A stretch of 64,000 nt of DNA from the NCBI RefSeq assembly GCF_001687545.1, contig NZ_CP016545.1:310001-374000 (forward strand), read 5' to 3'. Under the pieces are notes generated by a model. It searched no databases, was not told the origin of the DNA, and saw only the letters and a program-made list of their open reading frames with translations. This document shows, piece by piece, positions 10,633 through 41,808 of this stretch (position 1 is its first letter; each line of letters starts with the position of its first letter). Source of the DNA: Paraurantiacibacter namhicola. Lineage in GTDB: Bacteria > Pseudomonadota > Alphaproteobacteria > Sphingomonadales > Sphingomonadaceae. A program made the position numbers and the translations under genes.

Positions 10633-10651
10633 CGTCTCGCTTCTCTCATGA

Positions 10652-10671
10652 GTCCCTGCGAAGGCAGGGAC
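10652..10671. repeat. REP-like hairpin, first of two between gcvH and gcvPA
   Basis: Perfect 8-bp inverted repeat GTCCCTGC / GCAGGGAC with a GAAG loop, followed by CTCTCTC. The arm and the trailing GGGACCTCTCTC are shared with the palindromic element inside ileS at 40272-40350, so both belong to one repeat family. It lies inside the gcv operon and could stabilise or separate mRNA segments. Confidence 0.8.
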
Positions 10672-10700
10672 CTCTCTCGGCAGGGCTGTAGGATTGCGGG

Positions 10701-33311: not shown

Positions 33312-33560
33312 GTCCTCGGTGCTGTTCCCTCCGCTTCGCTGCGGGGCACCTGCGAGCGGGCGGTCGCCCTTGCGGTCCGCTGGTCGCGTTCCGGACTGGC
33401 ACTACACCGCTGGCTTTATCGCCTAGTCCAAGTTCAAACTAACTGGGCTGGCTATAGTTCGGTCGATGAAATCGACCGCAAGCGCGACCGCGCGCCGGCC
33501 GGTTAGGCCGGAAGCCAAGCGGGCCGGACGGCCCGCGCCCGGCGCTTGAGGGATCAAGAA

Positions 33561-37973: not shown

Positions 37974-38908
37974 TCCGCCTCACTCACCGCGACCCGATGC
38001 CGGAGGCGCTGCACGGCGCCATCATCGCGCTCGGCAATTTCGACGGCTTCCACACCGGCCACCAGCATGTCGCGCGCGAGGCCATCGACTGGGCGCGCGC
38101 CGAGGGCCGCCCCGCCGTCATCGCCACCTTCGATCCCCATCCCGTGCGCCATTTTGCGCCGCATGTGCCGCCCTTCCGCCTCTCCACGCTGGACCAGCGC
38201 GAGGAATGGTTCGCCGCTGCCGGCGCGGACGGCATGCTGGTGTTCACTTTCGACGATGCGCTGGCGGGCATGACCGCGCAGGATTTCATCGGCCTTCTGC
38301 TGGGCGACCATATGCGCGCGGCGGGCGTCGTGACGGGGGAGGACTTCACCTTCGGCAAGGGCCGCGGCGGGAATGTGGACGTGCTGCGCGATGTCGGGGC
38401 GGCGCATGGCATTGCTGCGCGCGCCATCTCTCCGGTGGCTGACGAAGGCATGACCATATCCAGCAGCCGCATCCGCGATGCGCTGAAGGCGGGCGATTGC
38501 GGGCGCGCGGCCGAACTCCTCACCCGCCCCTTCGCAATCCGCGGGCCGGTGATCCATGGCGACAAGGTGGGCCGCACCATCGGCTATCCCACCGCGAACA
38601 TGGAACTGGGCAGCTATCTGCGCCCGCGCTTCGGCATTTACGCCGTCACCGCCCGCGTGCTGGACAGCGGCGAGGAGCTGATCGGTGCGGCCAATGTCGG
38701 CATCCGCCCCACATTCGATCCGCCCAAGGAATTGCTGGAGCCCTATTTCTTCGACTTTTCCGGCGACCTCTACGGACGCGAGATCGAGGTGCGGCTGGAG
38801 CATTTCCTGCGCCCCGAAGCGAAGTTCGACAGCATGGATGCGCTGACGGCGCAGATGGCGCAGGATTGCGAGGAGGCGAGGAAGCTTCTAAGCGCGCCCT
38901 CGCAATGA
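37970..38908 (+). CDS. ribF: Bifunctional riboflavin kinase/FAD synthetase
   Basis: The 312-residue enzyme makes FMN and then FAD. The FAD synthetase half has LGNFDGFHTGHQ (about 21-32), TFDPHPVRHF and ISSSRIRDAL; the kinase half begins GDKVGRTIGYPTANM and contains NVGIRPTF. ATG 37970 overlaps the dipeptidase stop by 4 nt and ileS starts in its last codon region. The ribF-ileS-lspA order is common in bacteria. Confidence 0.96.
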   Translation: MIRLTHRDPMPEALHGAIIALGNFDGFHTGHQHVAREAIDWARAEGRPAVIATFDPHPVRHFAPHVPPFRLSTLDQREEWFAAAGADGMLVFTFDDALAGMTAQDFIGLLLGDHMRAAGVVTGEDFTFGKGRGGNVDVLRDVGAAHGIAARAISPVADEGMTISSSRIRDALKAGDCGRAAELLTRPFAIRGPVIHGDKVGRTIGYPTANMELGSYLRPRFGIYAVTARVLDSGEELIGAANVGIRPTFDPPKELLEPYFFDFSGDLYGREIEVRLEHFLRPEAKFDSMDALTAQMAQDCEEARKLLSAPSQ

Positions 38909-41808
38909 GCGACGAACCCGAACAGCAGCGCGATTACCGCCCCACCGTCTTCCTGCCGAAGACCGGCTTCCCCATGAAGGCCGGCCTGCCGCAGAAGGAG
39001 CCCGGAATCCTGGCGCGCTGGGAGGAGGAAGACCTCTACGGCCAGCTGCGCGAGGCGCGCAGCGGTCGCGAGAAATTCATCCTGCATGACGGCCCGCCTT
39101 ACGCCAATGGCAACATCCACATCGGTCATGCGCTGAACAAGGTGCTGAAGGATGCGGTGGTCCGCACGCAGAGCCTGCTTGGCAAGGATGCGCCTTACGT
39201 GCCCGGCTGGGATTGCCACGGCCTCCCCATCGAATGGAAGGTGGAGGAGAAATACCGCAAGAAGAAGCGCAACAAGGACGAGGTCCCCGCGGCCGAATTC
39301 CGCGCCGAATGCCGCGAATATGCCGCCGAATGGGTGGGCGTCCAGCGCGAGCAGTTCAAGCGGCTGGGCATCTCCGGCGCATGGGACCGGCCCTATCTGA
39401 CCATGGCCCCCGACGCCGAAGCGGGCATCGTCGCCGAACTCCTCAAATTCGCCGAGACCGGCCAGCTCTATCGCGGCGCGAAGCCGGTGATGTGGTCGCC
39501 CGTGGAGAAGACCGCGCTCGCCGAGGCCGAGGTCGAGTACGAGGACATCACCTCGACGCAGATCGACGTGGCGTTCGAGATCACGGAGTGCCCGAATGTG
39601 CCCAAATTGGTCGGCGCACACGCGGTGATTTGGACGACCACGCCGTGGACGATCCCGGTGAACCAGGCGTTGGCCTATGGGCCGGATGTTGACTATGCGC
39701 TCGTGGAATGGGGCGGGACCAATCGAAATTTCTTGGTCGCCAAACCGCTTGTCGAAGCTTTCATCGAGCGCTTCCACGCGGCGAATCCTAGTGAACATCT
39801 GGAGCATTTCGGGAAGACCTTTAAAGGCTCCGACCTCGCCGGAACCATCGCCCGCCACCCGATGCACCACCTCGGCGGGTTCTTTGCCGAGCCGCGTCCG
39901 CTGCTGCCGGGTGATTTCGTCACCACGGACAGCGGCACGGGCCTTGTCCATATGGCGCCGGACCATGGCGAGGACGATTTCGAGCTGTGCAAGGCGCATG
40001 GGCTGAACCCGAAATTCGTGGTCGATGCCGATGGCCGCTACAAGGAAGACTGGTTGTGGCTGCCCCGCACCGACGAGCGTTCGGGCAGCGTCATCAACCC
40101 GAAATTCAACGCGCCGGACGGGCCGATCTGCTCCGACCTGCGCGAGGCGGGCGCGCTGCTGAGCTCATCGGCGGATTACCAGCACTCCTACCCGCATAGC
40201 TGGCGGTCCAAGGCCAAGGTCATCTATCGCTGCACGCCGCAATGGTTCGTGCCGATGGACCAGGAAACGTCCGTCGTCCCAGCGGAAGCTGGGACCTCTC
40301 TCAATGGGAACGCCAGCCCGGACGAGATCCCAGCTTCCGCTGGGATGACGCTGAGGCAGAAGGCCATGCAGGCCATCGACGCCACCCGCTTCGTGCCGGC
40401 CAAGGGCAAGAACCGCATCGATTCCATGGTGGAAGGCCGCCCGGACTGGGTGCTCAGCCGCCAGCGTGCCTGGGGCGTGCCGATCACCCTGTTCGTGGAC
40501 CGGGCGAGCGGCGAATACCTCGTCGATGAAGCCGTCAACGCCCGCATCGTCGAGGCGGTAAAGGCCGAGGGCGTGAACGCCTGGCGCGAGGAGAATGCCG
40601 CGCATTTCCTGGGCGAAACCCGCAACCCCGACGATTACGAAATGGTCGCCGACATCCTCGATGTCTGGTTCGACAGCGGTTCCACCCACGCCTTCGTGCT
40701 GGAGTCGGACAACTGGCCCGAGCTTTCCAGCCCCGCGGACCTATACCTGGAAGGCAGCGACCAGCATCGCGGCTGGTTCCAGTCATCGCTGCTGGAAAGC
40801 TGCGCCACCCGCGGCCGCGCGCCGTACAAGGCGGTGCTGACCCACGGCTTCACCATGGCGGCTGACGGGCGCAAGATGTCCAAGTCGCTCGGCAATACGG
40901 TCGATCCGCTGAAAGTGATGGGCGAATACGGCGCGGACATCATCCGCCTGTGGGCGCTCAGTGTCGATTACACCGAGGACCACCGCATCGGCCCGGAAAT
41001 CCTGAAGGGCGTGGGCGACCAGTACCGCCGCCTGCGCAACACCTTCCGCTACATGCTGGGCGCGCTGGAAGGCTACACGGGCAATCTGGAAGATGCCGGC
41101 GCCGTGCCGGAGCTGGAAGTCTATGTCCTCGCCTTGCTGGCCGATCTTGACGGGCGGCTGCGCAAGGCGGTCGAGGATTACGACTTCAACACCTATGTCC
41201 GCGCGCTGACCGAGTTCTGCAACGAGGACCTCAGCGCCTTCTTCTTCGATATCCGCAAGGACAGCCTCTATTGCGATGCGCCGGAGGATGACCGCCGCCG
41301 CGCCTATCGCGCCGTGCTGGACCTGCTGTTCCACGCGCTGGTCCGCTACGCTGCGCCGGTGCTGGTCTTTACCGCCGAGGAAGTTTGGCAGAGCCGCTAC
41401 CCAGACGGCGGCAGTGTCCACCTGCTGGAATGGCCGATGGTGCCGGGCGTGACAGCAGACGGCGCGCGCTGGAAGGCCCTGCGCGAACTTCGCGAAGACG
41501 TGTTCGAAGCCATCGAGCCGCTGCGGCGCGAGAAGGTAATCCGCTCCGGCCTCGAAGCCGAAGTCTCCGTCCCCGCCAGCGCCGTGCCCGAAGGCTTCAG
41601 CGACGAGGACCTCGCTGAGCTGTTCATCACCGGCACCGTCACGCGGCATGATGGCGAGGGCATCACGGTGACCAAGTCCGACGATGCGAAATGCGGGCGC
41701 TGCTGGCGCCTGCTGCCCGAGGTGGAAGAGGACGGCGCGCTATGCAATCGCTGCGAGCGCGTGGTGGACGGATGGGATGCCGCCCACGCGCAAGGCGGGG
41801 AGGCATGA
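38905..41808 (+). CDS. ileS: Isoleucyl-tRNA synthetase with an in-frame repeat insertion
   Basis: A 967-residue class I synthetase. HIGH is at 72-75, KMSKS at 657-661, WTTTPWTIP and the CP1 editing domain are present, and the C-terminus has the zinc-finger CGRCWRL...CNRCERV. ATG 38905 overlaps ribF by 4 nt. Residues about 456-482, between CTPQWFVPMDQ and TLRQKAMQAID, are encoded by a palindromic repeat and have no counterpart in E. coli IleRS, where MDQ is followed after two residues by LRAQSLKEI. The frame is kept and all active-site motifs are present, so the enzyme should be functional. lspA overlaps its stop by 4 nt. Confidence 0.96.
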   Translation: MSDEPEQQRDYRPTVFLPKTGFPMKAGLPQKEPGILARWEEEDLYGQLREARSGREKFILHDGPPYANGNIHIGHALNKVLKDAVVRTQSLLGKDAPYVPGWDCHGLPIEWKVEEKYRKKKRNKDEVPAAEFRAECREYAAEWVGVQREQFKRLGISGAWDRPYLTMAPDAEAGIVAELLKFAETGQLYRGAKPVMWSPVEKTALAEAEVEYEDITSTQIDVAFEITECPNVPKLVGAHAVIWTTTPWTIPVNQALAYGPDVDYALVEWGGTNRNFLVAKPLVEAFIERFHAANPSEHLEHFGKTFKGSDLAGTIARHPMHHLGGFFAEPRPLLPGDFVTTDSGTGLVHMAPDHGEDDFELCKAHGLNPKFVVDADGRYKEDWLWLPRTDERSGSVINPKFNAPDGPICSDLREAGALLSSSADYQHSYPHSWRSKAKVIYRCTPQWFVPMDQETSVVPAEAGTSLNGNASPDEIPASAGMTLRQKAMQAIDATRFVPAKGKNRIDSMVEGRPDWVLSRQRAWGVPITLFVDRASGEYLVDEAVNARIVEAVKAEGVNAWREENAAHFLGETRNPDDYEMVADILDVWFDSGSTHAFVLESDNWPELSSPADLYLEGSDQHRGWFQSSLLESCATRGRAPYKAVLTHGFTMAADGRKMSKSLGNTVDPLKVMGEYGADIIRLWALSVDYTEDHRIGPEILKGVGDQYRRLRNTFRYMLGALEGYTGNLEDAGAVPELEVYVLALLADLDGRLRKAVEDYDFNTYVRALTEFCNEDLSAFFFDIRKDSLYCDAPEDDRRRAYRAVLDLLFHALVRYAAPVLVFTAEEVWQSRYPDGGSVHLLEWPMVPGVTADGARWKALRELREDVFEAIEPLRREKVIRSGLEAEVSVPASAVPEGFSDEDLAELFITGTVTRHDGEGITVTKSDDAKCGRCWRLLPEVEEDGALCNRCERVVDGWDAAHAQGGEA
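40272..40350. repeat. Palindromic repeat element inserted in frame in ileS
   Basis: Two 27-nt arms (40272-40298 and 40324-40350) are inverted copies differing at 2 of 27 positions, around a 25-nt loop. Each arm is itself a small hairpin, CCCAGC-GGAA-GCTGGG or its complement. The reading frame gives SVVPAEAGTS and DEIPASAGM. The left arm shares GGGACCTCTCTC with the hairpin at 10652 in the gcv operon. Confidence 0.9.

Follow-up and report, generated by a model that had tools for sequence, protein, structure and literature searches.

How does a long, stable palindrome come to lie within the reading frame of an essential gene, and why at one particular place in it? The question is raised by ileS, which encodes isoleucyl-tRNA synthetase (IleRS) and is carried by the window, i.e., the whole 64-kb stretch of DNA that was analysed. 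From the evidence presented below, we hold it very probable that the palindrome in ileS is a CGTC-type REP doublet kept at a permissive loop of the enzyme, and that this loop is a recurrent landing site in Sphingomonadaceae. The features discussed are collected in Table 1.

Table 1. Features of the ileS element, related sequences of the window and genome, and groups of palindromic loops. Positions are those of the window unless marked as genome coordinates.
Feature	Position	Strand	Comment
ileS, isoleucyl-tRNA synthetase, ATG to stop	38905..41808	+	open frame and TIGR00392; the start ATG is a choice
CGTC-type REP doublet, 79 nt, read in frame	40272..40350	+	encodes VVPAEAGTSLNGNASPDEIPASAGMT; the final T is the T of TLR
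Left arm	40272..40298	+	CGTC tag, 8-bp stem (40276-40283 / 40288-40295), GGAA loop, CTC tail
Spacer, 25 nt	40299..40323	+	differs among copies of the genome
Right arm (inverted)	40324..40350	+	GAG, 8-bp stem (40327-40334 / 40339-40346), TTCC loop, GACG tag
Codons of the hypervariable 29-residue loop, MD to TLR	40261..40347	+	residues 452-480 of the structural model, mostly low confidence
Second inverted repeat of the window	33356-33495		score 16, arms 96 nt apart
Lone half element	10650-10675		GAGTCCCTGCGAAGGCAGGGACCTC, like one REP arm with an altered stem
Doublets of the family (genome coordinates)	15674, 350272 (ileS copy), 1167467, 1371098, 1464544, 1762766, 1865956, 1890453, 2005372, 2310318
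Doublet in uvrA (genome coordinates)	1371098-1371167		about 1500-1570 of locus L016
Loop group A			CGTC REPs; 5 loops
Loop group B			CCGTTCG..TGAGC..GTCGAAG; 12 loops
Loop group C			CCCTCTCCCC..GGGGAGAGGG; 18 loops
Loop group D			CCCCTCCCGC..GCGGGAGGGG; 5 loops
Loop group F			4 loops

A palindromic repeat read in frame in ileS

The original prediction described a 79-nt element with 27-nt inverted arms matching at 25 positions, each arm also forming a small hairpin. Comparison of the arms confirmed this description: 25 of 27 positions are complementary (93%), and each arm on its own folds as an 8-bp stem closed by a 4-nt loop. The CGTC tags, CGTC starting at position 40272 and GACG at positions 40347-40350, are the outer ends of the doublet. 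The full element is predicted to form one long hairpin (-59 kcal/mol, z -9.6), and none of 200 shuffled sequences was equally stable. In a scan of the window with a threshold score of 14, it was the top-scoring inverted repeat; the second repeat listed in Table 1 was the only other one to reach the threshold.

The IleRS frame is uninterrupted across the element, and its match to TIGR00392 (795 bits) is above the cut-off of 621. Twenty-six residues are encoded by the element, 25 of them belonging to the 29-residue loop between MD and TLR and the last one being the T of TLR. To call these residues extra is only partly right, since a near relative (locus L030) has an unrelated loop of 30 residues at this place, while others have 2-9 residues. 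The placement of the element, in frame and right after CP1, was borne out. This is the place at which the chain, on leaving the CP1 editing domain, re-enters the catalytic core. In an AlphaFold model of IleRS (mean pLDDT 84), the loop sits between a strand (residues 439-448) and a helix (residues 482-492); residues 460-473 have pLDDT below 50, and the element-encoded loop is predicted to be disordered. The model matches solved IleRS structures, best 1qu3 (Z 40.9, rmsd 5.0 over 837 residues), and the equivalent site in Staphylococcus aureus IleRS is at residues 416-419. Enzyme function is presumably normal with this loop in place.

The arm is not unique in the genome, and the dispersed REP-like family that had been supposed does exist. 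Ten full doublets were found in the genome (2.59 Mb, one contig), and a palindrome pattern allowing up to 2 mismatches gave 58 matches per strand, versus 4 for a reversed control. When nine of these copies were aligned, the CGTC ... GACG ends were nearly constant and the spacers variable; the tenth copy, read separately, looked likewise. The left CGTC is kept in eight of the nine aligned copies, the exception being the more diverged copy at 1371098, and one of the eight has GACA on the right. A sample of 149 genomes of the same taxonomic family, this genome among them, contained the element in 46 cases (E <= 0.001).

Conserved genes contain two of the ten doublets, one in ileS and one in uvrA. 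Four others (L004, L005, L007, and L008) are not crossed by any open frame of 130 codons. At 1865956 the sole spanning frame, of 137 codons, has no Pfam family, and the doublet at 2005372 is spanned by one 151-codon frame; two doublets precede a CcmH and a GTPase domain.

Occupancy of the loop in related enzymes

The loop between MD and TLR could be read in 209 of 210 IleRS records, comprising the window, 80 named loci, and a further 29 loci and 100 stretches that together represent 129 of 171 matched relatives. The 200 distinct Sphingomonadaceae loops obtained vary in sequence as well as in length (2-69 residues, median 29), and the segment is not conserved across related IleRS. With the arm not unique either, both conditions named in the original prediction as refuting it came out negative. 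A strict palindrome test, requiring an inverted-repeat score of at least 12, was applied to loops of at least 36 nt (159 of the 200). Forty-four loops reached this score, and in none of them did any of 100 codon shuffles score as high; the next best loop scored 11. The remaining 156 distinct loops fail the test, 41 of them being below the testable length.

The 44 strict loops were grouped by eye on their arm sequence (Table 1; the family labels so assigned also cover 11 weaker loops, which are excluded from strict counts). In an all-versus-all blastn comparison (E 0.001), matches joined members of one group, apart from 5 of 90 pairs that linked C with D. No match crossed between A, B, C/D, and F at this threshold, which for such short sequences means an absence of detectable similarity rather than proof of separate origin. 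Since the same spot of IleRS has been filled repeatedly by unrelated repeats, we conclude that the loop acts as a recurrent landing site. The presence of unrelated families in this loop in many other species had escaped the original prediction.

Strong inverted repeats (score of 16 or more) were also located along the 200 ileS open frames, some of which are partial. Out of 50 such repeats, 34 are in the loop, which accounts for 3% of the bases. Another eight precede the loop by 380-640 nt, four follow it at a distance of 1.1-1.4 kb, and the remaining four are close to the start of the frame, perhaps ahead of the gene. The upstream region, at about 380-540 nt from the loop, constitutes a second recurrent place in ileS (L044, L055, L072, L088, L092, L093, and L101), and a third one, downstream of the loop, holds CGTC-type doublets (L053, L055, L093, and L254).

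Outside Sphingomonadaceae, a short turn usually takes the place of the loop: where the IleRS match was split at the site (52 genomes of the class), the two parts were no more than 9 nt apart. Among 28 further loci from outside the family, 26 were tested and had loops of 2-38 residues; 25 of these scored 9 or less, and one (L323) scored 27. The other two of the 28, L300 and L322, have short loops, as judged by eye. Locus L323, from another family of the class, has an in-frame loop of 38 residues with a palindrome of yet another arm, of the GCGAGGCACGAGG type. The landing site is therefore not confined to Sphingomonadaceae.

To count changes at the site, a FastTree phylogeny of IleRS was built with the loop removed. 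The strict set requires at least 38 state changes on this tree, 35 when groups C, D, and F are merged, and 34 when mere presence is scored, although such counts do not separate gains from losses. When the 11 weaker loops were added, 49 changes were obtained versus a shuffled mean of 53.2, and a value as low was seen in 2 of 200 shuffles; the family labels are therefore only slightly clustered on the tree. Even neighbours on the tree can differ: L079 and L080, at branch lengths 0.015 and 0.019, have loops of the mutually related groups D and C, respectively. The rows nearest to the window are L060 (Aurantiacibacter luteus), with a group A doublet in the corresponding position, and L030, whose IleRS groups with that of the window and whose loop is non-palindromic. 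The mobilisation may be less recent than supposed, since the same-family doublet is at the same place in L060 and missing from L030. Non-palindromic loops of near relatives differ too, e.g., those of L187 and L194 (28 versus 7 residues).

The slight clustering could point to a different history, in which only a few original insertions took place and ileS segments were afterwards exchanged horizontally or altered by gene conversion, the mosaic being due to recombination. This alternative is possible but rather improbable. Besides the clustering, it draws on loci L079 and L080, whose loops differ and whose 150-nt flanks agree at 147 and 142 positions; furthermore, recurring loop types other than REPs also sit, as judged by eye, on distant branches. 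Against it, families, spacers, and edges vary between species, and many of the inserts are repeated in the genomes that carry them. A joined query of 18 inserts, searched in the inserts' own genomes, located the own insert elsewhere in at least 10 of 18 cases among the matches listed, with none listed for the other 8, whereas each of 8 non-palindromic control loops matched only itself among the matches listed (18 inserts and 8 controls, 26 genomes). With a second joined query, the own insert was repeated in at least 7 of 18 genomes among the matches listed, 7 more genomes held copies similar to other inserts of the query, and in the remaining 4 only the insert itself was among the matches listed.

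Comparison of 12 sister sets, the flanks of which have diverged, revealed neither a clean target duplication, as looked for in a MITE, nor a simple empty site, so copies may have arrived through replacement by recombination just as well as through insertion.

Reading frame of the inserts and a second site in uvrA

For 45 loops (the 44 strict ones and L034), the frame in which the insert is read was compared with the average over the remaining open frames, using residue scales for hydropathy and disorder. The frame read is more disorder-promoting in 41 loops (4 opposite), poorer in W/C/F/Y in 42 (1 opposite), and poorer in R/H/K in 43 (0 opposite). The most disorder-promoting open frame is in use in 22 of the 45 loops, versus 12.4 expected. 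Hydrophilicity was rejected as a frame filter, the frame read being more hydrophilic in 19 of the 45 loops (p 0.43). Since members of one family may share a frame by copying rather than by selection, and are then not independent, the p-values of the frame test are too optimistic. Selection against harmful peptides would explain the bias.

The genome has a doublet of this family in frame at one more place, namely in uvrA, where it lies between the UvrA_inter and UvrA_DNA-bind domains. Of 70 uvrA loci, 68 could be read, and 28 score 12 or more at this inter-domain site; the positives comprise 10 of 30 best matches, 2 of 18 of another set, and 16 of 20 picked for long spans. By eye, the uvrA gap of relatives holds several repeat families, the same as in ileS and in similar frames. 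The bias recurs in the 28 UvrA inserts, the frame read being more disorder-promoting in 27 (1 opposite), with fewer W/C/F/Y in 24 (1 opposite) and fewer R/H/K in 25 (3 opposite). Single in-frame REP doublets of relatives were seen in the adenylation domain of ligA (L295), in cobN (L115), and in the linker of a 2-oxoacid dehydrogenase E2 (L127). A Pfam check of 24 open frames spanning elements at other loci revealed no family in 14; the element precedes the domain in 5, perhaps upstream of the true start, and lies inside or between domains in 5.

The protein-level nature of the bias bears on another explanation, namely that the loop is kept for a function of the RNA or DNA, with the hairpin pausing ribosomes or binding a factor and so tuning IleRS production. 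The hairpin is indeed very stable, and palindromes of unlike sequence and similar shape recur at the same place. We nevertheless regard this function as improbable: the 156 distinct loops without a strict palindrome include those of close relatives such as L030, the bias acts on the protein sequence, and UvrA has the same pattern.

We favour instead a course of events in which a small, non-autonomous CGTC-type REP doublet entered ileS at a permissive loop, where CP1 returns to the catalytic core. Its retention would be due to a length and phase that leave the frame intact, and to a frame that yields a flexible peptide poor in aromatic, Cys, and basic residues. Unrelated palindromic families would have entered this loop, or replaced one another in it, many times, arriving by insertion or by REP-REP recombination and then passing a filter on length, frame, and peptide. 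A bolder extension, which we put forward tentatively and think rather unlikely, is that in Sphingomonadaceae several REP families, unrelated to one another, are adapted to coding sequence, having one stop-free frame that yields an inert linker; permissive loops of essential genes, among them the IleRS junction and the UvrA inter-domain loops, would then be part of their normal habitat and serve as landing pads with a turnover faster than that of species.

The usual view of REPs is that they are mostly extragenic and that intragenic cases are scattered. If dozens of species have unrelated repeats in a single loop of an essential enzyme, the evolution of proteins through inserted repeats could be put to the test: species carrying the insert could be set against sisters lacking it, and the filter on the reading frame could be measured. 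It also indicates natural permissive sites in IleRS and UvrA.

Relation to known palindromic repeats

As in REPINs, which consist of an inverted REP doublet with a spacer and are predicted to form a hairpin (Bertels and Rainey 2011, PMC3116915), two inverted REPs with a spacer make up the ileS element. REPs of the REPIN/RAYT system are, however, described there as primarily extragenic and RAYT-linked, while the ileS copy is intragenic. Nothing matching PF01797 turned up when the genome was searched for the REP-associated tyrosine (Y1) transposase that the original prediction had suggested looking for; a control search was positive in 5 of 14 known genomes. That the element is an ordinary REPIN mobilised by a RAYT is, despite the shared doublet architecture, very unlikely, as 36 of 46 element-bearing genomes are also without a PF01797 match and the association in the family is not significant (p 0.23).

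The proposed likeness to Rickettsia palindromic elements (RPEs), which are palindromic repeats lying in frame in metabolic genes (PMC10969869), is supported by the palindrome read in frame inside ileS, where the frame is open and both the family and the fold of the presumably functional IleRS are matched. It is a likeness by description; the hosts here are Sphingomonadaceae, and several unrelated families occupy one site. The nearest named relatives of the lineage (Aurantiacibacter) are known as free-living. The enterobacterial RU elements (Delihas 2007, PMC2759123) are likewise small mobile repeats read within proteins, but they are longer (103-168 bp), occur in other bacteria, and have no recurrent shared site mentioned in the abstract.

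The closest resemblance is to the CGTC-1 REPs of alphaproteobacteria, which have a CGTC tag, an 8-bp stem, and a 4-nt loop, often form dimers, and apparently have no dedicated transposase (Di Nocera, De Gregorio, and Rocco 2013, PMC3733652). The ileS element shares the tag, stem, loop, and dispersed dimers, and it fits most published features of CGTC-1 dimers. Published dimers are described as having HH orientation; in the ileS doublet the tags face outwards. The first two stem positions are A-T almost invariably in the published REPs; in the ileS copy the stem starts with AT in the right arm and GT in the left arm, and the left arm has AT in seven other copies of the genome. The ileS tail is CTC, versus a consensus of CCA; the latter is reported for most units and not all (PMC3733652), so CTC does not exclude membership. 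The same paper equates CGTC-1 elements of R. conorii with RPE-6. Our literature search found no paper on insertion of a palindromic in-frame repeat in isoleucyl-tRNA synthetase. The kind of element is itself known, since REPs have been reported in tRNA synthetase genes of X. oryzae, E. lithoralis (an Erythrobacter), and S. alaskensis, the synthetase being left unnamed in the text, and in uvrA of other species (PMC3733652). In the account given there, REPs in genes of one functional category are at different sites, except in recB of Xanthomonas, whereas here one loop has been occupied many times by unrelated families.
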